Part shown: piece after piece, positions 4,606-20,693 of the stretch
Layout: each line of letters starts with the position of its first letter
How positions within the stretch are numbered: the first letter of the stretch is position 1
Source: a virus
Strand: one strand, 5' to 3'
IMG/VR virus record: IMGVR_UViG_3300003890_000147
Coordinates: 1 to 20,693 of that record
DNA length: 20,693 nt
The notes under the pieces: generated by a model
Seen by the model: only the letters and a program-made list of their open reading frames with translations
The model's database searches: none
Told to the model about the DNA's origin: nothing
Translations under genes and position numbers: made by a program

Positions 4606-6968
4606 AAAGATTTGTCCTTCCCTACATCTTTCTGTGTTTGCTTTGCCTCGAGGGCAAAGCACAGGTGAATGTGTGGCCAAAACCGGCCACTGCTGCTATG
4701 GTTTATACAATAAACAATGTCAGTGACAATGTAACTCTGTCAAGTGCCGCGGGGGTGATGAAAATCCACTCCAGCTATGTTGACAGCATTAGAAGTGCCT
4801 ACCGAACGGTGATACCGTCCTACTTTAGTTCCAACCGGTACGGTTCCATTTCAGGTGCCCTTAATGCGGTTGGTGCGCAAAGTTACAAAAGTGGCACTGT
4901 GTTGGTACCTGGCGGTCTCAACATTATTACGTCCACTCAGTACATTAAGAATCCTGTGTTTTTACGTGGCGGGGGAAGCTTCAGTCCGAAAGACGCGGAG
5001 TGGTATAACACAGGAGCTATGTTGAAGTTTAAGGGATTGACGATTGGAGTGGTGGATAGTACGCAGGGGACACGCATTGAGGGATTGAGTTTTATTGGGG
5101 ACAGTGTGAATGTGACGAAGATTTTGCTGCAGAAGAAGCGTCCCCAACGCCAGCAGACTACGCTCGGTTATCAGGGAGTGGAGTGGAATTTGTTCCGCAA
5201 CGCAGATTCCATTGGGGTTGAGATTGTAGCGCCGGATAACAATACGTACTTTGCTCACAACAGGGTTGATTATAATAATGGCCATGGACTGGTATTGCGA
5301 GTCACTGATCCTGGTTATACTCCGCGTGGATTGAATCCGATGATTGCGTTCAATCGCTTCATTGGAAATGATTCGTGTCAGGTGAAGGTGGATGGGATTC
5401 AGTATGCGGGCATAATTGGGAATGGCATATTAGGGCCTCAGAATAACCGTCCGATGCTGTTCTTTGACGGCATTTCGAATAGGATGACGATAGCAAACCT
5501 TGTGCTGCTCAATGACATTGAACAGGAGGCGGGCGGCATTCTTAATGCTGCGGCAATCAAGTTTAATAATGGAGACTTGAATGGGGTGATGTTCAACCGT
5601 ATTGGTCAGGGGCAGAGGGGAATTGAGATTGCCGGAAGCGGAAGTAGGACGTTGCTGGTGATGCATAACAACTTCACCGGAATTGATACGGCAATTTACT
5701 TGAAGGAAGGTAGGCTCAACCTGCTCAGCATGAACAACCGATTTAGTAAAGACCCCACTTCCTATTTCAAACCGCACAGGGGGGTTGTGAAGAAAAGTGG
5801 CGGAACGCTGCGCTATCTTGATATTAGTTCAACTGACGAAGGTACAACAATTGATGCGGGTGGTAATGCCTCTAATGCAGGATTGAAACTTAATCCGTTC
5901 GCACAGGCGAACGTGTCGCTGTTTGACAGTTGTGCTAGTGGCGTGTCGAGGGAGCTTGAAATATGGTATCACCAGGCTGGTAAAGGCCGTTACCGGACGA
6001 AGTTGTTTTATCAGGACGGGAGCTTTAAGATTGTACCGGACTCTGGTTTTGTACGGCTGAGCGGAGAGGCCATCGAGATAGCCTGCGTGGATACTAACAT
6101 TCAGCGTAATAGTGCAAACTCATACATTTATGGGAGTTCGCAGAGGACTGGAAGCTCGTACCCATTTAACGTGAGCGGTCATCTTATAATCCAGCCGCGC
6201 ACGTCGTCGTCGCGGGATATTCTGTTCTATACGGGCAGTACGACACCGTCCAATAGGGTAGTTATAACAAGAGATGGAAGCGTGGGAATTGGTGGGTTCG
6301 ATGGTAGAGCTGATTCGTTGGGCAGTGGGCAGGGTGTTATTGGCCTGAGGAATGCGGCAGTAAATCCGACTGGCGTGGTTCGCGACGGTGTAATTCTGTA
6401 TGCTAAAGATGTAAATGGAAGTAGTGAGTTAGTAGTTAAGGATGAAAGTGGTACTGAGACGGTGCTGTCTAACTTGACGTCTAGTGGTGAAGCCAATACC
6501 GCGTCAAATGCCGCTGGGACGGGGGTGGGTATTTTCAAGCAGAAAAGCGGCGTCAATCTTGTGTTCAAACGGTTGAAAGCGTCCAACGGAATTAGTATAA
6601 CGGACGCGACTGATAGTGTGTTGGTGGCTGAAAAGCCGCGTGACTGGTTCTGGACAAAACACGGTTCTCTTAGTGCCAGCGACAACTACAATATCTGGTA
6701 TACCTCGCAGGCAATTACCATTACACGTGTTACCAGCTATACTGATGCTGGGACGTATAGCTTCAACTTGTATTGGCGGAGTGAAGCTTCTCCCAACAGC
6801 GGTGGTACTGCTATACTGAGCTCTACACTCGTTGCTGATACGAATGCGGAAGCAACTACCTCGTTTAGTAGTGCCACGGTACCGGCGAACAGTTGGATTG
6901 CACTCCAGTCAACCGCGTATGCGAGTGCAACGAAAGTGGGAATAAACATTACGTACAAAGTTGACTGA
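4602..6968 (+). CDS. Tail spike/fibre with beta-helix domain and signal peptide
   Basis: 788 residues. Residues 1-21 (ending GKAQ) read as a signal peptide. About residues 90-400 look like a right-handed parallel beta helix: an FLRGGG entry, GTRIEGLSFIGD, then regular rungs with Asn ladders such as DNNTYFAHNRVDYNNGHG. This fold is typical of phage tail spikes and polysaccharide lyases. Around 525-565 a GHLIIQPR...ILFYTGS...VGIGG segment matches the trimeric fibre motif seen in many phage fibres. About 638-670 carries GVGIFKQKSGVNLVFKRL...NGISIT, also common in fibres. The last ~120 residues form a beta-sandwich-like C-terminal domain. The expected role is host surface recognition. Catalytic residues cannot be assigned by eye. 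Confidence 0.7.
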   Translation: MKRFVLPYIFLCLLCLEGKAQVNVWPKPATAAMVYTINNVSDNVTLSSAAGVMKIHSSYVDSIRSAYRTVIPSYFSSNRYGSISGALNAVGAQSYKSGTVLVPGGLNIITSTQYIKNPVFLRGGGSFSPKDAEWYNTGAMLKFKGLTIGVVDSTQGTRIEGLSFIGDSVNVTKILLQKKRPQRQQTTLGYQGVEWNLFRNADSIGVEIVAPDNNTYFAHNRVDYNNGHGLVLRVTDPGYTPRGLNPMIAFNRFIGNDSCQVKVDGIQYAGIIGNGILGPQNNRPMLFFDGISNRMTIANLVLLNDIEQEAGGILNAAAIKFNNGDLNGVMFNRIGQGQRGIEIAGSGSRTLLVMHNNFTGIDTAIYLKEGRLNLLSMNNRFSKDPTSYFKPHRGVVKKSGGTLRYLDISSTDEGTTIDAGGNASNAGLKLNPFAQANVSLFDSCASGVSRELEIWYHQAGKGRYRTKLFYQDGSFKIVPDSGFVRLSGEAIEIACVDTNIQRNSANSYIYGSSQRTGSSYPFNVSGHLIIQPRTSSSRDILFYTGSTTPSNRVVITRDGSVGIGGFDGRADSLGSGQGVIGLRNAAVNPTGVVRDGVILYAKDVNGSSELVVKDESGTETVLSNLTSSGEANTASNAAGTGVGIFKQKSGVNLVFKRLKASNGISITDATDSVLVAEKPRDWFWTKHGSLSASDNYNIWYTSQAITITRVTSYTDAGTYSFNLYWRSEASPNSGGTAILSSTLVADTNAEATTSFSSATVPANSWIALQSTAYASATKVGINITYKVD

Positions 6969-8598
6969 ACGGGAATTAAAGGAAGCCGCCAGTGAGATTG
7001 ACCATGTGGCTTCTAGTGGTGGTGTTGAGTTGCTGAAGAAGCAAATACTTCCGCATGCGTTTGCTTCAATGGCAGTGTTTTGCAAGCTGTTTTTTCCCAA
7101 CCGCTTCCGCAAGGAGTTCGATCGTGGTCATCATGAGTTGTTTGAATTGATTGACGAGAAGCGCAATAGTGATGGCACAGTGTGGTGGTACCAGAAGGCT
7201 GGAGCAACGATGTTTCGTGGAGCCGGCAAAACTTCAATAGTTGCGCTGGCTCTTCCAGCCCGTGAAATTCTGTTCAGACAACGCCACTACATTGTGTATG
7301 TGAACAACAACAGTGATACGGCTATTTTTCAGACGGAGAATTTGCGCCGTGAGCTTGTTTCCAACCAGCGGATCAAGAATTTGTTTGGAGACATTAGGAC
7401 GGGTAGTGTAGACGGACTTGATGACGCGTTCGGGAAGAAATGTTGGGTGGCAAACGGACAGACGTTTGTTTTGCCGCGTGGCAGCGGTCAACAAGTACGA
7501 GGACTCTTGTTTAGGGATTATCGTCCCGACTTGATTATAGTTGACGATTTGGAAGATGTAAATGAGATGGGTGAATTGGCCAGAAAGAAGCGGGAAAACT
7601 GGTTGTTTAGTGATTTGTTTATGAGTGTGGATGCTAGTGATGATCACTGGCGCATATTCTACATTGACACGCTGAAACATCGGCAAGCTATACCTAACAA
7701 GCTGAAGGAGTTGAGTGATTGGAAATTTATCAACATTCCACTCTGTACGGATGACTTTAAGACGCTGTTTCCCAACTTCGTACCGCAGGAGAAACTGGAT
7801 GCGCAAGTTATGCAGGCGCGGGAAAGCGGTACGATGTACTTGTTTTACAGGGAAAAGATGGGCAGGATTGTTCACGGTGATGAACAGGTGTTTAAGCCGG
7901 AATATTTCAAATATTACAGTGAGTTGGATGCCAACTTTTCAACCCGTAACATTGAAACGTTTATTATTGTTGACCCAGCTAAGACTACTAATGTGGCAAG
8001 TGCGCACAGCGCGATTGTTGGGATTGGTGTTGATGTGCGGGCGAATAAGATTTACATTCGCGATGTGGATCATGGGAAGTTCCATCCGGAGGAAATTTAT
8101 CAGCGTACCTTCTCCATGGCAAAGTTGTTGGGAGCACATGTTATCGGATACGAAGTTACTGGGCTTAATGAATTTATAACGCATCCGTTTAGAAATGCGA
8201 TGCACGAGAGTGGTTTAAATTTCGAGCTGGTTGAGTTGAAGCCGCGGCGAGGTAGGGAGGAGTTTCTTGTTGATCTCGATTTGCCGGAGAAGGCACACAG
8301 GGTGGGAGCGCTGCTGCCGTATTACAGGAAGGGACAAATTTACCACAACAAGGATTGTAGGGAGATTGGGGTTCTTGAGAGTCAGCTTCTTGACTTTCCC
8401 GAACCTGATTTGTGGGACGTGTGTGATGCCACCTCTTACCTGATTCAGATGATGGAGGGAGGACTGCGCTACTTCGGATTCGGACGGACTGACGGGTTGG
8501 AGGATGATGGTGAAGATGAGTTTGCAATTTTAAACAGTGGATGGATGGAACCGCTGCGAGTGGTTGATGGCGTATGGCGGAAAGAACCATCAGCATAG
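6961..8598 (+). CDS. terL: Terminase large subunit
   Basis: 545 residues; the ATP-driven DNA packaging motor and headful or cos nuclease. The ATPase domain has a Walker A-like RGAGKT at residues 86-91, and a Walker B LIIVDDLED at 191-199 with the catalytic acidic residues at its end. The nuclease (RNase H-like) domain has D338 in IIVDPAK, E398 in GYEVTG, and D486/D489 in DVCDAT, the expected D-E-D set. The start is uncertain: TTG 6961 overlaps the tail spike stop and has no ribosome binding site, and GTG 7006 is the next in-frame choice. All domains are downstream of either. It is followed by a 25-base overlap with the next gene. Confidence 0.92.
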   Translation: MTERELKEAASEIDHVASSGGVELLKKQILPHAFASMAVFCKLFFPNRFRKEFDRGHHELFELIDEKRNSDGTVWWYQKAGATMFRGAGKTSIVALALPAREILFRQRHYIVYVNNNSDTAIFQTENLRRELVSNQRIKNLFGDIRTGSVDGLDDAFGKKCWVANGQTFVLPRGSGQQVRGLLFRDYRPDLIIVDDLEDVNEMGELARKKRENWLFSDLFMSVDASDDHWRIFYIDTLKHRQAIPNKLKELSDWKFINIPLCTDDFKTLFPNFVPQEKLDAQVMQARESGTMYLFYREKMGRIVHGDEQVFKPEYFKYYSELDANFSTRNIETFIIVDPAKTTNVASAHSAIVGIGVDVRANKIYIRDVDHGKFHPEEIYQRTFSMAKLLGAHVIGYEVTGLNEFITHPFRNAMHESGLNFELVELKPRRGREEFLVDLDLPEKAHRVGALLPYYRKGQIYHNKDCREIGVLESQLLDFPEPDLWDVCDATSYLIQMMEGGLRYFGFGRTDGLEDDGEDEFAILNSGWMEPLRVVDGVWRKEPSA

Positions 8599-9044
8599 GC
8601 AATCTGCGTAACATCGTTGTATACAATGATGAAGAATTTCCAGACGGGGTAGTAACGCCTAGTGTGTTGATAACACAAGCTCCGTCGAGTGATCAGCATG
8701 CTGCGCGGGTCAGAGATTTGAATGGGGGAACACTTGATCCGGTGTTTAACAGTGTGACTGTTAATGGGGTGTTTTCTCATCGCGGTCAGCAGTTGGAGTT
8801 GTTTGGAAGCGGTGTGCTGGTGAGCAGACCGCCGAGTGTAAATCAACTGGGTGGGACAGCAGGTGGTACTGTTGACGGTTCGATTCAAGTTCTTACTGAT
8901 CCCGCCGACCTTCCACTTACGGCAGATGCCTTGCGTGATGATTTGGTTGCAAATTTGATTCCGCAACTGCGGAACAATATTGAAGAATTGCAGCAGAAGA
9001 TTAATGAATTGGCTGCTGTACTTAACGGATTTTTCGGATACTGA
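8574..9044 (+). CDS. Unknown virion-region protein with C-terminal coiled coil
   Basis: 156 residues, beginning inside the 3' end of the large terminase gene and ending in TGATG shared with the portal ATG. The first ~110 residues are beta- and turn-rich (for example PSVLITQAPSSDQHAARVRDLNGG, quoted in part: VLITQAPSSDQHAARVRDL). The last ~40 form a strong heptad-like helix (LRDDLVANLIPQLRNNIEEL) ending in a short hydrophobic GFFGY. A beta head with a coiled-coil stalk is the plan of a short trimeric fibre, such as a head or neck fibre. Its place between terminase and portal fits a head-associated protein. No family is recognised, so the function is open. Confidence 0.5.
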   Translation: MAERTISIGNLRNIVVYNDEEFPDGVVTPSVLITQAPSSDQHAARVRDLNGGTLDPVFNSVTVNGVFSHRGQQLELFGSGVLVSRPPSVNQLGGTAGGTVDGSIQVLTDPADLPLTADALRDDLVANLIPQLRNNIEELQQKINELAAVLNGFFGY

Positions 9045-10990
9045 TGATTCCTATACAGTCACGTGACGTAAAATTTCGCACCCTTGCCGGTGTGAATTTT
9101 CCTGAATATCGGTCCCGATATCCTGAGGGACTCAACCTTAAGCCTGGCGAGCGTGATCATGACCGCATACTGCGTGCTTTGCTGCGCCGCGTTAGAGATG
9201 CGTATGACGCGATAAAGCCCCGCCACAGTGGCTGGCGTAAGCTTGATGAAAATGTCACCTCGTACATTCCGCTCAGTGAGCTTGAACGGAAGGTGAAGGC
9301 GGCGGATGACAGAAAGCCCGTTCAGATTGTGATTCCGATGACGTATGCCACTCTTGACACGCTTCTGTCCTTCTACATGAGTTTTTTGGAAAATCCCATC
9401 TACCGCTACACGACGGAGGGAAGTGTTGAAGATGTGATTGGGACAGTGTTGTTGGAGCGGCATGTAAATTTGCAGGCCAGCCGCTTTAAACATCCACTTG
9501 TGTTGCATACGCTTGCCCGTGACGGTTTCATGTATGGAGTTGGGGCGGTTGCAACAGTGTGGACGCAGGTAGAAGGGTATGTAACGAAGCGGATTGATGA
9601 GAACATCTTTGGTAACAGCGTCTCACAACGTGTTCGTGAGCGGGTTGTCCAGTACGAAGGCAACAAGTTACTGTCTATTGATCCGTACAAGTTGCTTCTG
9701 GACCCGTCCGTAAGTGTTGCTTCGTATCAGGACGGAGAGTATGTTGGATGGTATGACCGCACCACCAAGAATGCCTTGCTCAACCGTGAGAGACAGGATA
9801 CTGCCGTCTTCAATGTGAAGTATTTGCGCCACATTGACGCGCGTAGCAACATCATTGCGTTGAGTGAGACGGGACGTTCAACCCGTTTCGGGCAGAAAGA
9901 TTACTACGATGTAAACAATACGCTTGTGCCGGCAGATGTGGTGTGGATGTATGTTGACCTTGTTCCGAGTGATGAGGAATGGAAGCTGTCGTCGGGGGAG
10001 AGGAACGAGAAGTGGATGTTTGGTGTTGCCGGTGACAGTGTGATAATTGCCGCGTCGAAGCTTGAGCTTGACCACAATATGTTTCCGGTTGTGTTGTGTG
10101 CTCCAGATTATGATGGACACTCGACTACGCCGGTGAGCAGGATGGAGATGACGTATGGGTTGCAACAGGCTCTTGATTTTCTGTTTAACGCGCGGCTGAG
10201 TAATTTGCGCAAGCTGGTGAACATGTTGTTTGCTGTTGACCCGTCTCTCATCAATTTGCCTGATTTGATGGATACAAGGGATGGCATGATAGCTCGGTTA
10301 CGTAGAGAGGCATGGGGTCGTGGCGTGCTACGTGACGCTATCATGCCCATCCCAGTCAGTGACTTTAGCTCGACTGTGTTCAGCGACATTAACTTTCTGA
10401 TCAACGTGACTGACCGTGCCACGGCGGCCACTGAACAGCAGCAGGGAATCGCTCAGCGCAGTCGTGATCGCGTGACAGCAACCGAAATTCAAGCTCTGGC
10501 GACGGGCAGCGGAAGCAAGCTGAGCAAAATGGTACAGTTGATGTTTTGGCAATACCACTATGACCTGTCCTACATACTGGCGAAGCAGACCGTACAACTT
10601 GCTGACGTGGATGTGTGGACGGAATTGATGGGACCTAGCGAAGAGCAACTGAGGAAAATTTACGGCGATCAGGATAGAATACGAATAACGCCTGATCAGT
10701 TGCGCATGGGACTCGTACAGATTCACGATGGTAGTAATCCCGCTATGGGGGATGCAAATGCGTGGAATCTGTGGCTGCAGAACACGGCTCAAATTCCCGA
10801 ATTGGCGCAGGCGTATGATTTGACGCGGATTGCAGCGCAGTTTTTGCGCATGCAGGGGATCAGGAATCCGGACAGCATGCGCAGAAAACAAGTTCCTCAG
10901 ATGCAGGCACGTGTGATGCCTGACGAACAGGTTGAACAACAGGTGCGTGCCGGAAATATCATTCCAATGCGCGAGGTGGTGAATGGCTAA
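9044..10990 (+). CDS. Portal protein (head-tail connector)
   Basis: 648 residues, the usual size of podovirus-type portals, which form a dodecameric ring at one capsid vertex for DNA entry and exit. Position directly after the terminase and before the scaffold fits. Visible features: an N-terminal helical part with SGWRKLDENVTSYIPLSELE; a central stem and clip region with LLSIDPYKLLLDPSV and QDGEYVGWYDRTTKNALL; and a C-terminal crown with RDRVTATEIQALATGSGSK (TATE at 478-481), which matches the T-A-T-E-I helix common in such portals. The ATG overlaps the preceding stop. The 3' end overlaps the next gene by 8 bases. Confidence 0.88.
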   Translation: MIPIQSRDVKFRTLAGVNFPEYRSRYPEGLNLKPGERDHDRILRALLRRVRDAYDAIKPRHSGWRKLDENVTSYIPLSELERKVKAADDRKPVQIVIPMTYATLDTLLSFYMSFLENPIYRYTTEGSVEDVIGTVLLERHVNLQASRFKHPLVLHTLARDGFMYGVGAVATVWTQVEGYVTKRIDENIFGNSVSQRVRERVVQYEGNKLLSIDPYKLLLDPSVSVASYQDGEYVGWYDRTTKNALLNRERQDTAVFNVKYLRHIDARSNIIALSETGRSTRFGQKDYYDVNNTLVPADVVWMYVDLVPSDEEWKLSSGERNEKWMFGVAGDSVIIAASKLELDHNMFPVVLCAPDYDGHSTTPVSRMEMTYGLQQALDFLFNARLSNLRKLVNMLFAVDPSLINLPDLMDTRDGMIARLRREAWGRGVLRDAIMPIPVSDFSSTVFSDINFLINVTDRATAATEQQQGIAQRSRDRVTATEIQALATGSGSKLSKMVQLMFWQYHYDLSYILAKQTVQLADVDVWTELMGPSEEQLRKIYGDQDRIRITPDQLRMGLVQIHDGSNPAMGDANAWNLWLQNTAQIPELAQAYDLTRIAAQFLRMQGIRNPDSMRRKQVPQMQARVMPDEQVEQQVRAGNIIPMREVVNG

Positions 10991-12461: not shown

Positions 12462-13742
12462 ATGCCAATTTTTGGAATGGTTGGAACGGGTAACTTTCAA
12501 GCTAATGAAGACCCGGATGGTTGGAGACAGGGAATTCTGAAGTTGTTCCCCAACTCAAGCGCCACGTTGGTTGCCATTACGTCTATGATGGGTAAAGGCA
12601 CCAGTGAGACGCACAAGGTGGTGCATTGGTGGAGTAAGACGTTGCAGGGGCAAGCCGGTAACATTACCGGTGTATATACTGACAGCGCCCTTTCAACCGC
12701 GTATGTGAGCGGTGGAGTGGCGGGCGACTTTCTCTACATCAAACTTAGCGAGAATGATGCCGGTCACTTCAGAAAGGACCACCTGGTGCTGTTGCGGGAC
12801 AACAGCGATCTGGCTGTTGATGTGAATGCAGTTGTTGAATCGGTTGTACGCAACGGTGCTAACAGTTATCTGAAGGTGAAGCTGATTGAACCGGACGACA
12901 ATTCCGGCACCCATGATTTGTCTGATGCGGATCGTGTGCTGGTAATTGGTTCAGTCGCTGCCGAGGGCACTGGAGCGCCAATTTCTCTCCAATACCAGCC
13001 CACTCAATACTCGAACAATATGCACATCTTCAAGACGTCGGTGGATGCTACTGGAACGGTGCTGGCGACTGAGTTGCGTACGGGTGACCCGTTCGAGGAA
13101 TATCAGCGTCAGGGTCTCCTGTATCACGGACTTGAGATGGAGGCGGCGTTTCTGTTCTCGCAAATTTCGAGTGGTACGGACGAGACTGGAAAACGCAAAT
13201 ATACGATGCGCGGCATCATCCCGTGGATGAAATTGTACGCCTCATCCAACATCAAGGACTTTCGCGCAGACAGGCCGAATAAGACGTGGAAGGAAGCCGG
13301 TGAAGATTGGCTTGATGATGTGCTTGCGGCATACAGCGAGTGGGTTGGCGATGGCAGTGAAGTGCTGTGCCTTGCCGGAGCCGGTGCCCTTAACGGGTTG
13401 AACAAGTTGGCCAAGTATAACGGCAACATTCAGCTCACTCCGAAGGACGTGTCGTATGGAATGCGTCTGACGCAGTGGACGAATCCGTTCGACATTCCCC
13501 TTTACATCAAGTCGTATTGGCAATTCACGAAGGAGAAGAACTCGTACAACAATTCCCTCCTGATTTTGAAGCCCTCCAACATCGAGTACATTCCGATGGA
13601 GGGCAGAGATACTGACTTGAAGACCAATCAGCAACCGCCCGACTTTGACGAGCGGCTGGATCAGTGGCTTACGGAGTGCACGTTGAAGATTGTACATCCT
13701 GAGCAGTTTTTACTGCTTCACGGTGTCGGTCTGGATGGTTAA
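12462..13742 (+). CDS. Major capsid protein, SU10/DUF5309-type
   Basis: 426 residues. GAGAGGAG lies 9 bases before the ATG. The order scaffold, decoration, this gene, terminator identifies it as the shell protein. The sequence resembles the DUF5309 (SU10-type major capsid, HK97-fold) family: an N-terminal arm (GRILKLFPNS-like: GILKLFPNSSATLVAITSMM), a beta-rich middle, and the segment DPFEEYQRQGLLYHGLEMEA from residue 209, which matches the family's E-x-x-R-Q-x-x-L-x-H-x-x-x-x-E helix. GIIPWM follows. The C-terminal domain includes LAGAGALNGLNKLAKYNG and NSLLILKPSNIEYIPMEGRD. HK97-fold shells mature by expansion during packaging; whether crosslinks form cannot be told. Confidence 0.85.
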   Translation: MPIFGMVGTGNFQANEDPDGWRQGILKLFPNSSATLVAITSMMGKGTSETHKVVHWWSKTLQGQAGNITGVYTDSALSTAYVSGGVAGDFLYIKLSENDAGHFRKDHLVLLRDNSDLAVDVNAVVESVVRNGANSYLKVKLIEPDDNSGTHDLSDADRVLVIGSVAAEGTGAPISLQYQPTQYSNNMHIFKTSVDATGTVLATELRTGDPFEEYQRQGLLYHGLEMEAAFLFSQISSGTDETGKRKYTMRGIIPWMKLYASSNIKDFRADRPNKTWKEAGEDWLDDVLAAYSEWVGDGSEVLCLAGAGALNGLNKLAKYNGNIQLTPKDVSYGMRLTQWTNPFDIPLYIKSYWQFTKEKNSYNNSLLILKPSNIEYIPMEGRDTDLKTNQQPPDFDERLDQWLTECTLKIVHPEQFLLLHGVGLDG

Positions 13743-14990: not shown

Positions 14991-16543
14991 ATGAGTTTGC
15001 TGTGCGGATACCACTGACGCAGGGGTTGCGGAGTGATCCGCGTGTTCCCCGCAATTCCCCTGCGCTGGTAACGCTGAAAAATGCAAAACCAAGTCCGGTT
15101 GGTCTCGTTCCAATTGAACGGGTTGTGAATCCGTTTGACCCGCGAATTGGGTCGGATGCGAACTGGCCTCTTCCTCAGTTATTCAAGGGCAGAAGCAGAA
15201 CGTTTCTCGCCGACCGCCATGCCGTTTACTTTGTGAACGAGGAGGACTGGAGTCTTTATCCGCTCGATTTGTACCTGTATGAATCACCTAACACACTCGT
15301 ACAAACGCTGCCAATAGGCAATCCGTGGCAATTGATTGAGTCTTATGACAGTTGGTTGCTTACCAACGGACAGTGTGTGGTATTTTCTATAAACGATGAG
15401 CAGCTGCGGAAAGTATATGTGGTAACCAACAGTGTGTTTGAGACGGGGTGTGAACACAGGGGACGGTTTGTTGTCGGTGGGTTTGATCCGGAGAATGCTC
15501 CGCCTGCAGATTGGCAATCGTACCTACGTGCCAAAGTTGGCGATACGCTGGTTGACTCACGTGTAAAAGAACAAAGTTTGAGTTTTGGTGGAAACTTTGT
15601 TCTGTGGAGTTCGATTGGCGGTGGGGACTTTCCATTCTGGCTGTGGCATCTCAGTGCGGCAAAGTACAGCTACTATGTGAAGGGAGCTCCGTATGGGGAT
15701 GACAATCCCCTGTTGTTTGAGAGAATGCGCCACAGTACGTTCGGTTTCATGGTAATGCCGTGGCAGGGACGTGTGAGGGTGATGAAACCGCTCGGCGATT
15801 CGATTGTTGTGTATGGTGACCATGGAATTGCATTGATGTTTCTCGCCCAAACTACGTATGGGTTGAGACTGCTGAAGAATTTTGGAATCCATGCGCATGC
15901 GGTGGGGGGTGACGAGAGTGAACATGTGTTTATGGATGGAAAGGGAAACTTGTGGCGTATTAATGCGCAGTTGCAGTTCGAGCTGCTCGGTTACAGGGAG
16001 TTTCTGTATCCGATGATGGAAGGAGAAGTACAAATCTCGTATGTAGGTGAACTTGACTTGGGTCGGGAGTATGTAATTTCAGATGGTCACCAAACATATC
16101 ACCTGACGCAGAGTGGATTATGTCAAAGTACTCAGTCGTACGTTACCTCTGCCATTTACACAGCGGGCGGAGTTGTTGGCGTTGCCACGCATGCAGACTA
16201 CCTTGATGACAACGAAATGATGTTGTGTACAGATTGGACGGACTTCGGTGAAGGATTGGCTATAAAGAAGGTTGGATGGATTCAACTGGGCAACCGTGTA
16301 CAGAGTGGTGTAAAGCTCGAAGTTGCAGTTGACTATCGATTTAGCAAACATGAGGATGGGAGAAGAAGCCGTTTTACGATTGTGAACAACGAAGGTGCTG
16401 CGTATGTGGGAGTGAGTGGAACTGACTTCAGAATTGTAGTGAAATGTGATCAGTATCAGCTGGCTGATATAGATGAAGTAGTTGTACGCTACCAGCGTAG
16501 TGATAGGAGGTATGTACGCAGTGTTGACGCCATTAACGCCTGA
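14987..16543 (+). CDS. Putative tail nozzle/tail hub protein
   Basis: 518 residues, beginning in the previous stop codon (ATGA), so coupled. The sequence is beta-rich throughout with repeated short strand patterns (RTFLADRHAVYFVNEEDW, GGDESEHVFMDGKGNLWRIN, GREYVISDGHQTYHLTQSG), which suggests a beta-propeller-like fold. It begins with PLTQGLRSDPRVPRNSPALV, a conserved-looking arm. After the adaptor gene and before internal proteins, the expected function in short-tailed phages is the nozzle (tail tubular B / P22 gp10-like) that closes the channel. No signature residue confirms this, so the name rests on fold impression and position. Confidence 0.5.
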   Translation: MNEFAVRIPLTQGLRSDPRVPRNSPALVTLKNAKPSPVGLVPIERVVNPFDPRIGSDANWPLPQLFKGRSRTFLADRHAVYFVNEEDWSLYPLDLYLYESPNTLVQTLPIGNPWQLIESYDSWLLTNGQCVVFSINDEQLRKVYVVTNSVFETGCEHRGRFVVGGFDPENAPPADWQSYLRAKVGDTLVDSRVKEQSLSFGGNFVLWSSIGGGDFPFWLWHLSAAKYSYYVKGAPYGDDNPLLFERMRHSTFGFMVMPWQGRVRVMKPLGDSIVVYGDHGIALMFLAQTTYGLRLLKNFGIHAHAVGGDESEHVFMDGKGNLWRINAQLQFELLGYREFLYPMMEGEVQISYVGELDLGREYVISDGHQTYHLTQSGLCQSTQSYVTSAIYTAGGVVGVATHADYLDDNEMMLCTDWTDFGEGLAIKKVGWIQLGNRVQSGVKLEVAVDYRFSKHEDGRRSRFTIVNNEGAAYVGVSGTDFRIVVKCDQYQLADIDEVVVRYQRSDRRYVRSVDAINA

Positions 16544-17968: not shown

Positions 17969-17979
17969 GATGGATGATC

Positions 17980-18984
17980 ATGGCAACTGAGCAACATGTT
18001 AAGAGACGCGTCATCAGACCTGACGGAACGGTTAGTATTGAGTATTTCGATCCAAGTCAAGTGTTGTTACGACCGCAACAGCCTATCACACAGTCCATTA
18101 ACACGACTCCTGCACAAGTGCCTCCGCGTCCACCGCTGATGTTACCACAAGCAGGTAACTTCCTAAGTCAGGTTGGTGAATTTGTATCGAAACCGGAAAA
18201 TTTTGGTCTTCTGGGTCAGATTGCCAATGCTATTGCTCCCAACACGATTGGCGGTAATCTTGGAATGATTGCCCACCAGGGTGCTCAAGCGCAGTTGTTT
18301 CAGCAGGCGCTCAAGAAGCCTGAGGAGATGAGTCCAATGCTCAATCCAGAACTTCAGAGCGCAGTTCTCAATCAGACCAGACAGGACCAGCAGCTTGAGC
18401 TTGCCCGCAAGCAGCTTGCCCTGAACATGCTTCTCGGGAAGGCAGAACTTGGATTTAAGGAAACTCCCGAGCAAAGACTGAATAGAGAAGCTATCATCAC
18501 TCTACTCGGACAACAACCGGCAGCACCAAAAATGCACCGAGTGAGTATAAATGTTGATGCACAAAAGAAGGAGACTACGCAACCAGATAAACACATCTGG
18601 GTGGTTGATGATATGGGCAATCTTATCAAATATGTGGGGCCTGACAAACAACAGGCACCAGCTGATACAGGAGGACAGGGACTCGAAGCACAGAGAAGTG
18701 AGCTGGCAGAAATTAAACATGCAGAAGACCAAGCATACGAACTGCTCAGTTTGAAGTATCCTGACAAGCTTGTGAGAGACCCGAAAACCGGACGGTGGAC
18801 ACTCATCGGTGGAATTACTGATGAGGTTATGACTGATTTTTCGGAACTGTTAGGTCAAGCTATCAGAGCCAAGCAAAGCCGCGGTGTGATCAGAGACCCG
18901 ATTGACATTCCTCCACTTGGTAGTGTTAGCAGTATTGGAGTGGAACAGTCAAAGCCAGTCCAAAATAAGAAGAGGAAGTTCTAA
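17980..18984 (+). CDS. Putative internal virion protein, Gln-rich
   Basis: 334 residues from ATG 17980, with AGGA about 9 bases upstream; ATG 17974 (two residues longer) is the alternative and sits too close to it. It starts 11 bases after the previous stop. The sequence is Gln-, Pro- and Leu-rich: a disordered N-terminus (QVPPRPPLMLPQAG), a helical part (LELARKQLALNMLLGKAELG), IWVVDDMGNLIKYVGP, and a helical C-terminus that ends in the basic tail NKKRKF. No membrane segment is seen. Position between the ejection-type gene and the large polyvalent-type gene suggests a core protein packaged in the head. The gene ends directly before the parS cluster. Confidence 0.5.
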   Translation: MATEQHVKRRVIRPDGTVSIEYFDPSQVLLRPQQPITQSINTTPAQVPPRPPLMLPQAGNFLSQVGEFVSKPENFGLLGQIANAIAPNTIGGNLGMIAHQGAQAQLFQQALKKPEEMSPMLNPELQSAVLNQTRQDQQLELARKQLALNMLLGKAELGFKETPEQRLNREAIITLLGQQPAAPKMHRVSINVDAQKKETTQPDKHIWVVDDMGNLIKYVGPDKQQAPADTGGQGLEAQRSELAEIKHAEDQAYELLSLKYPDKLVRDPKTGRWTLIGGITDEVMTDFSELLGQAIRAKQSRGVIRDPIDIPPLGSVSSIGVEQSKPVQNKKRKF

Positions 18985-18986
18985 AG

Positions 18987-19002
18987 TGTTTCACGTGAAA
19001 CA
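18987..19002. promoter_or_regulatory. parS centromere site 1 (exact ParB/Spo0J consensus)
   Basis: The 16-bp palindrome TGTTTCACGTGAAACA is read here without mismatch. This is the chromosomal parS consensus defined for Bacillus Spo0J and conserved across most bacterial phyla. ParB binds it, loads CTP, closes into a sliding clamp and spreads along DNA; ParA then moves the complex. The site starts 2 bases after the stop codon of the upstream gene. No parA or parB gene is in the window, so recruitment of host ParB, or of a phage ParB encoded elsewhere, would be needed for function. Confidence 0.9.
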
Positions 19003-19039
19003 TTGAGACAACATGCTGAAGATGTTGAACTTAAGTGAA

Positions 19040-19055
19040 TGTTTCACGTGAAACA
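19040..19055. promoter_or_regulatory. parS centromere site 2 (exact consensus)
   Basis: A second perfect TGTTTCACGTGAAACA, with its centre 53 bp from that of site 1, about five turns of the helix, so both palindromes face the same side. A degenerate third copy (11 of 16 matching) immediately follows at 19057-19072. Two exact 16-mers within 70 bp cannot be chance. Confidence 0.9.
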
Positions 19056-19104
19056 CTCTTTCACACGAAATGTTGAGACAAACCGCTGAAAACGTTGGAT
19101 TTGT

Positions 19105-20693
19105 ATGCCTCAACAGCCTGAAGCACTGATTAGGAAGTCATACGACCGTCTCAGTGAAGTTTACGAGATGCCTACGTATGACGAGTACGTCAAGATTCTT
19201 AATACTCCAGAAGGCAGACAAAAAGCATATCAACGTCTAAGTGAAGAGTATGAATTGCCGTTTGATTTTCAAACATTTGATTCAACAATAAAACAACAGT
19301 TACCTCGCTCAATCTTCGGACAGTTTGTTGAGGGTTTCAAGCGCTCAAATATTGGTCTTGCACTCACAGGTGATACTAATTTTAAAGAACCGCAAACATT
19401 CATGCAGAGTGTTGCTACGCAAGCTGGTACACTGGTAGGTGACCTTCCGTCCATGATTGTTGGCGGTGCGATTGCAGCACCAAGTAGAAGTCCTGTTATG
19501 GTAGCTGGTGCTGCGCTTGCCGCTCCTGAAGCGATCAGGCAGGCACAACTGGAGTTCATAGAAAAAGGCACAACCAGACCATTCATTACACAGAAGGATT
19601 TGAGCGAATTGGCTGCCAGAGCAGTCGCCTTAAGAAATTTGCAGCCAGTACCAGAATACAATCCTGAGTCGATAGTGGGCAGTGTGCTCAAATCGGCGGT
19701 GGCTGGAGTGAAGGGATTTGGAACAGGTGCTGCGACTGCGGCTGCTGGCGGTGCGGCACCCATTGGCCTTAAGACGGCTGCCGAGGTTGCCGCCATGACT
19801 ACTGTTCCGCGCGTACTTGAAGGAGAGTTGCCGACTGCTCGTGAGGCGGCAGAGGCTGCTGTTATGGTGGGCGGTATTAAAGCAGCCACCAAATTGCCGA
19901 AGCTCGTAAAGCGTGGTAAAACGACCACCACCGAAGAACCACCTAAACCAACTAAAGAGGAACCACCTAAACCAACTAAAGAGGAACCACCTAAACCAAG
20001 ACCTCTTACATACGCCGAACAGTTCAAAGAAGCTGCGGCTATTGCAAGATCAAACCTGATGGTGACGCGCGGTCTTGATGAAAACGTGCGCTATACCAGA
20101 TTAAAGGAAGCGCTCAAAGAGTATGATGAGATTGTATCGGAGGAAATTACAAATCCGCGACGGGCACGCGGCGAAGCCACAAGCAGGGAGGAGCGGGTTT
20201 TAGCTGCAGTGGAACCCGACGTGGTGCGCAAACCGTACGTGGATGCGATAGCACAAGCGTCAGTCCCAGTCTCTAATTTGCGGGCACAAATTGAAGCAAT
20301 CAAAAGTGAACTTGAGAAAAGGCAACCTTCAGAACAACAGCAGAAAACCGTCCAAAAAGACGTTGAACGGATTGGGATTGGATTTGAAGTAATTGCCACG
20401 CCAGAGAAGATTCCCAAATTTGACTTCTCCATTACGCCTACCGAACAGCTCGTTCAGATGCTCGAACCGCTCAAGAAAACTCTTGAAGAGCGCACAAAAG
20501 AGCTGAATATGGCGAAGAAATTGGGTGAAGACGCACTCATAAACTATTTCTTCGAGAACAAAGCACAAGGTAAGGCTGCCGCTCCGCTGCGTGGGACAAC
20601 TCCGTCTGGAGAGGTGGTTGCTGTAAAGGTGAATAGGGCGCGAAGCGTATGGAAGTATGTAGAGGAACAACAACAACAACTTGCGGCGGAAAC
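19105..20693 (+). CDS. Large polyvalent/internal virion-type protein, 3' truncated by window
   Basis: An open frame of at least 529 codons from ATG 19105 that has no stop before the window end. A weak GGA lies 5 bases before the ATG. Residues 13-28 (YDRLSEVYEMPTYDEY) and 42-58 (YQRLSEEYELPFDFQTF) are a tandem repeat of 29-residue period, similar to short N-terminal repeats seen in giant phage virion proteins. Two Ala/Gly-rich hydrophobic stretches (about 108-143 and 200-225) could be membrane-active. Residues 277-299 are a Glu-Pro-Pro-Lys-Pro-Thr-Lys repeat linker. The rest is charged helical sequence with short poly-Gln runs. This profile fits a long ejection protein or a multi-domain polyvalent protein; catalytic domains, if any, lie beyond the window. 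Confidence 0.65.
   Translation, partial: MPQQPEALIRKSYDRLSEVYEMPTYDEYVKILNTPEGRQKAYQRLSEEYELPFDFQTFDSTIKQQLPRSIFGQFVEGFKRSNIGLALTGDTNFKEPQTFMQSVATQAGTLVGDLPSMIVGGAIAAPSRSPVMVAGAALAAPEAIRQAQLEFIEKGTTRPFITQKDLSELAARAVALRNLQPVPEYNPESIVGSVLKSAVAGVKGFGTGAATAAAGGAAPIGLKTAAEVAAMTTVPRVLEGELPTAREAAEAAVMVGGIKAATKLPKLVKRGKTTTTEEPPKPTKEEPPKPTKEEPPKPRPLTYAEQFKEAAAIARSNLMVTRGLDENVRYTRLKEALKEYDEIVSEEITNPRRARGEATSREERVLAAVEPDVVRKPYVDAIAQASVPVSNLRAQIEAIKSELEKRQPSEQQQKTVQKDVERIGIGFEVIATPEKIPKFDFSITPTEQLVQMLEPLKKTLEERTKELNMAKKLGEDALINYFFENKAQGKAAAPLRGTTPSGEVVAVKVNRARSVWKYVEEQQQQLAAE
19933..20000 (+). repeat. 24-bp tandem repeat encoding EEPPKPTK
   Basis: Units at 19933-19956 and 19957-19980 differ by one base (GAAGAA vs GAGGAA at the start), and a partial third unit runs to 20000 (about 2.8 copies). 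Each encodes Glu-Glu-Pro-Pro-Lys-Pro-Thr-Lys. The sequence is a flexible, charged proline linker that separates the hydrophobic N-terminal part of the protein from its helical C-terminal part. Confidence 0.9.

Follow-up and report, generated by a model that had tools for sequence, protein, structure and literature searches.

The 16-bp consensus of chromosomal parS, the site of Spo0J/ParB, is taken here from PMC10197239, where it follows Livny et al. 2007. Our search of the literature on phage-borne parS returned as precedents only phi29 and SGI1, in addition to a cyanophage with its own parAB. The genome of phi29 carries four TGTTTCACGTGGAACA sites, each matching the consensus at 15 of 16 positions. 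In PMC9437464, which cites Meijer et al. 2005, entrapment of the phi29 genome in the spore is attributed to the host Spo0J. For phi29, then, a virulent phage is already described as using host ParB, in a form tied to sporulation. SGI1 carries two mimics of the parS of IncC plasmids, which are bound by the IncC ParB and from which the element gains stability; its parS copies also destabilise the helper plasmid (PMC10954446).

We analysed a stretch of viral DNA of 20,693 bp (the window), which is a complete virus record and part of a larger genome, the replication half (about half of the genome) lying outside it. Judged by its sequence, the window is a fragment of an SU10/PaP2-like podovirus. 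Among named genomes, the Desulfofustis phage LS06-2018-MD01 (OP947158; capsid 34%, terminase 40%) is nearest, and the Pseudomonas PaP2-like phages are more distant relatives. The gene order is shared with the Desulfofustis phage, and the gene that follows the parS sites of the window corresponds in position to the large protein with which the late operon of that phage ends. A scan of viral contigs with the capsid protein found no close relatives, and a terminase scan of genomes matched phage-size contigs only, in nanohaloarchaeon, Nitrospirae bacterium, WOR-3 and bacterial assemblies. Because the terminase matches are phage-size contigs in such assorted assemblies, they point to no particular host. 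A tRNA search found none. Three repeats were noted in passing: CATTTTCTCCAACA...CAATTACTCATTTTTAC is present at 193-269 in two copies, 91% identical and 42 bp apart; a 9-bp tandem repeat coding VENVENVEN lies at 873-931, in the final part of the small-terminase-like protein; and an exact 24-bp tandem repeat coding EEPPKPTK lies at 19936-19999, in the last late gene.

A mismatch scan of the whole window located two exact copies of the palindrome TGTTTCACGTGAAACA and no further match with three mismatches or fewer (Table 1). Dinucleotide shuffles gave a mean of 0.20 matches at this tolerance, and the expected number of exact occurrences of one 16-mer in 20.7 kb is about 5e-6 (length / 4^16). A chance origin of the two exact sites is excluded, and their identity as parS is very probable on sequence grounds, since a chromosomal-type parS is this 16-bp palindrome or a close variant of it. 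Noc-binding sites have a CCCGGG core (ATTTCCCGGGAAAT); the core is CACGTG in both window copies, which does not fit a Noc-binding site. The two copies lie in a gap of 120 bp, from the stop of the 336-aa ORF at 18984 to the next start at 19105, as compared with 2 bp for the corresponding gap of the Desulfofustis phage. The preliminary description had reported two perfect copies of the Spo0J/ParB consensus in the largest gap of the downstream gene block. We confirm the copies and their agreement with the consensus of PMC10197239, and the gap is the largest from terL onward and the only large one in the late operon.

Table 1 Features of the window that bear on the two parS sites.
Feature	Position	Strand	Basis
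Terminase large subunit (phrog_38)	6961..8598	+	family match
SU10-type portal protein	9044..10990	+	family match
SU10-type major capsid protein	12462..13742	+	family match
336-aa late protein, upstream of the parS sites, without family match	17974..18984	+	ORF and family search
Perfect 20-nt inverted repeat holding both parS sites, predicted RNA hairpin	18985..19057	.	repeat search and RNA folding
parS site 1, exact chromosomal consensus TGTTTCACGTGAAACA	18987..19002	.	sequence scan
44-nt direct repeat, copies 18989-19032 and 19059-19102, 75% identical	18989..19102	+	repeat search
parS site 2, exact chromosomal consensus TGTTTCACGTGAAACA	19040..19055	.	sequence scan
Degenerate third parS-like copy TCTTTCACACGAAATG, 5 mismatches	19057..19072	.	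direct repeat and reading of sequence
Final, large late gene (529+ aa), incomplete at the contig end	19105..20691	+	ORF; synteny with OP947158

The two sites lie in the arms of an inverted repeat (18985-19004 and 19038-19057, 20 nt each, 100% complementary, 33 nt between), in which the nucleotides flanking each 16-mer are likewise complementary between the two arms. Because the arms pair, the RNA fold of the gap is strong (z = -5.7). The repeat and its fold allow a reading in which an RNA or DNA hairpin would act as a signal for processing or stability of the late transcript, with an incidental likeness to parS, and both the pairing over 20 nt and the complementarity that extends just beyond the 16-mer agree with it. 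However, an exact match of an arm to the parS consensus would then be a coincidence of about 5e-6, the stem has no run of T and no intrinsic terminator was found in the gap, and an Rfam search of the gap gave no credible match. We regard such a hairpin function as very improbable. The third, degenerate copy, a decayed site, is carried by the 44-nt direct repeat.

The preliminary description had proposed that related phages be compared for conservation of both 16-mers relative to the surrounding bases. The comparison did not reveal such conservation. None of 134 related loci (1.8 Mb), fetched by terminase and portal searches, contains parS within two mismatches, and 47 long relative records show no match within one mismatch and a single match with two. 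Among these relatives we therefore do not find parS kept while its flanks drift, and the sites do not look like a core feature of the clade by this comparison.

One distant relative, L119, which was found via its parS and not via its terminase, carries an exact site and, 40 bp from it, one with three mismatches, at another position than in the window. Its sites are intergenic and upstream of a small-terminase-like gene, and a gene diverging from terS lies just downstream. A terminase tree does not place L119 and the window as sisters, with long branches that leave the placement unsure, and common descent of the two sets of sites is not supported by it. A search for kin of L119 found no further parS carriers. 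Because the 47 long relatives are without a site within one mismatch, the window pair does not appear to be ancestral, and the sites look gained, probably more than once. The region of the L119 sites corresponds to positions 1-160 of the window, where 17-nt palindromes (CTGCCGCAAAGCGGCAG type) occur in GC-rich repeats, 24-35 bp long, upstream of the small-terminase-like gene; these repeats are possibly a packaging or replication site.

The ten largest proteins of the window were checked, and none could be recognised as ParA or ParB. The neighbours of the sites are the 336-aa ORF and the last late gene, and parA and parB do not stand next to parS as in a phage or plasmid ParABS module. To this extent we agree with the earlier statement that the window holds neither gene. 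It does not follow that the phage is without a ParB, since about half of the genome is missing and relatives carry a ParB_N-methyltransferase. Of 25 long relatives of the clade (e.g. L371-L374), 24 encode a protein with ParB_N, in most cases about 450 aa long, and it is fused to an N6_N4 methyltransferase in all four relatives examined as well as in the Desulfofustis phage OP947158, whose ParB-like gene is ruled out as a partition protein by this fusion. Fusions of this kind are described as common in phages (PMC12704722), and the window's phage probably carries one.

The sites might thus be the target of a phage-encoded ParB-fold protein, for instance the ParB_N-methyltransferase of the clade, rather than of host ParB. 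The wide occurrence of ParB_N among the long relatives would suit this explanation, and the gene would lie in the half of the genome outside the window. On the other hand, relatives that bear the ParB_N gene are without parS, so that parS is not its general target, and most parS-bearing phages of other families are without ParB_N. The relatives with the gene and without the sites make the ParB_N-methyltransferase a partner that does not seem likely for the window sites, and we consider the explanation improbable.

A plasmid-like prophage, one of the roles first suggested for the pair, is not indicated by the relatives, because no tyrosine integrase (PF00589) was found in any of 26. A lineage without integrase, here of the tyrosine type, is what is expected of an orphan parS in a virulent phage.

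To place the sites in a wider context, we considered parS across viral contigs, where the exact 16-mer TGTTTCACGTGAAACA occurs in at least 120. The raw count is weak evidence because control palindromes of equal composition gave 0 (first) and 54 (second) matches, and intergenic placement and multiple sites per locus were used as tests in its place. Among the matches listed, 57 of the 146 copies of parS are not within an ORF of at least 50 aa, compared to 0 of 54 for the control (Fisher p = 6e-10). Several copies are present in 17 of 120 parS loci and in 0 of 54 control loci, again among the matches listed, and the parS loci are not all independent, some being related. No ParB_N match was obtained in 44 of 48 virus records with parS; with one exception, the 48 records are longer than 18 kb. 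Protein scans of four carriers (L011, L045, L084 and L119) showed a phage terminase in each, and portal, connector or capsid proteins in three of them.

Several carriers have sites in larger numbers. The related phage contigs L045, L018 and L054 contain clusters of three to five exact parS sites; that of L045 lies at the upstream end of terL. L011, an 18-kb contig without ParB_N, has three close pairs of parS (5525, 5551, 12130, 12154; two more beyond the locus), and its terminase, capsid, tail and connector are of families typical of phi29-type phages. L088 (116,662 bp), also without ParB_N, has 24 sites with two mismatches or fewer, mostly TGTTTCACGTGGAACA among the sites listed; it may be viral or misclassified actinobacterial DNA.

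Conservation of the site was measured in the marine podovirus family of L084, which is unrelated to the window's phage. The terminase of L084 alone was used as query, and relatives were fetched regardless of parS; the best 80 loci were taken with near-identical phages included, so that the counts below are not independent events. Among these best 80 matches, 71 loci have at least 180 nt upstream of terL. An exact parS is found within 170 nt upstream of terL in 39 of the 71, two more have a site with one mismatch, and in none does the best site have 2-3 mismatches. The distance to terL is variable (35-166 nt), and in the marine carriers flank identity is about 30% at a terL identity of about 76%. 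An exact site that is either present or absent, in surroundings that drift, looks in these sequences like the mark of a protein-binding site under selection. Most marine carriers have a single palindrome without partner, which also counts against the hairpin; some of the phages have a second palindrome, TGTTCCACGTGGAACA, 23-24 bp off, and each long carrier holds a single site or a single close pair. ParB_N was found in 0 of 10 marine-family phages examined, and a tyrosine integrase in 0 of 4 long carriers searched. The cultured Pelagibacter phage HTVC027P (L366; terminase 61%) is a relative of this family and has one 15/16 parS site at 15891-15906, between small genes near terS, which makes the host-ParB question testable in culture.

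We propose, with a probability of about 0.5 for the explanation as a whole, that the window holds an orphan parS pair on which host ParB would form clamps, allowing the host machinery to handle the phage DNA. Recognition by host ParB is the best reading of the sites because of their exact identity with the consensus, the exact upkeep of parS in a virulent phage family without ParB_N, and the precedent of phi29; it is weakened because, the distant L119 apart, no relative has the sites. The suggestion of the preliminary description that the sites are meant for host ParB is thus retained, with the qualification that the phage's own clade does not conserve them. We infer that host ParB dimers would recognise the two palindromes, and that bound ParB would form closed CTP clamps able to slide along the phage DNA next to the sites. 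The host segregation machinery (ParA gradient, SMC loading) would then handle the loaded DNA, and phage genomes would be positioned in the cell, or split between the daughters when lysis is delayed. The sites are likely to be genuine loading sites of host ParB. Whether they are used for positioning or segregating phage DNA is evenly balanced; segregation as the benefit is weakened because the need of a virulent phage for partition is not obvious. A role on the DNA is favoured over a transcriptional one because genes beside native parS in B. subtilis are unchanged on loss of Spo0J (PMC7022226).

The strongest rival is a copy-number-dependent control of late genes, in which host ParB, in excess early in infection, would load at parS, slide over the neighbouring late gene and damp it. 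Once phage DNA outnumbers ParB, the clamps would be diluted and the gene freed, and parS would serve to time the gene by phage copy number. Regulation also fits the placement because the sites of L119 and of the marine family are just upstream of genes: the window pair directly precedes the last late gene, the L119 site the gene diverging from terS, and the marine sites terL. Moreover, the ParB-like clamp KorB silences genes at a distance (PMC11790492). However, the B. subtilis result speaks against such control, and a scan of the gap for sigma-70 types found no promoter-like sites. We consider late-gene control unlikely, and the decoy, the phage ParB-fold partner and the RNA hairpin less likely than this. 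In a broader form, virulent phages would have gained orphan parS widely and repeatedly as a control element, with host ParB as a packaging copy-number timer in non-sporulating hosts; ParB clamps beside terminase or late genes would keep the phage at a stage before packaging for as long as phage DNA does not outnumber ParB. This generalisation is likewise unlikely.

The weakest of the four functions proposed in the preliminary description is that of a decoy, in which host ParB/SMC would be titrated off the chromosome by replicated phage parS, to the detriment of host segregation or division. In its favour, the sites would multiply when the phage reaches a high copy number, and the effect of the SGI1 copies on the helper plasmid is of this kind. 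A decoy needs no fixed place, whereas the long genomes of the terL family keep one site or close pair at one gene, and we hold this function to be improbable as well.

Within the literature searched, two observations appear to be new: parS in the lineage of the window, and the exact maintenance of the site upstream of terL in marine phages. The presence of the exact site both in the window's podovirus, which is unrelated to phi29, and in many marine phages without ParB_N suggests that phages commonly use the bacterial centromere protein as a host factor.

Compared with chromosomal parS/Spo0J (ParB) sites, those of the window share the exact 16-bp consensus and differ in that they are on a virus, away from oriC and without adjacent parAB. 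The phage parABS modules of P1, N15 and the cyanophage Mic1 (PMC7156551) similarly place a parS-like site on a phage, but these phages have their own parA/parB, of which none is seen in the window. SGI1 resembles the window as a mobile element with two parS copies and a reliance on the ParB of another replicon, binding and stabilisation having been shown for SGI1; its parS, however, is of the plasmid type, and it is an integrative element and not a virion-forming phage. Finally, phi29 belongs to an unrelated family, its 15/16 sites are genome-wide and unpaired, and its host is a spore-forming Gram-positive; like the window's phage, it is a virulent podovirus with several parS sites at or near the consensus.
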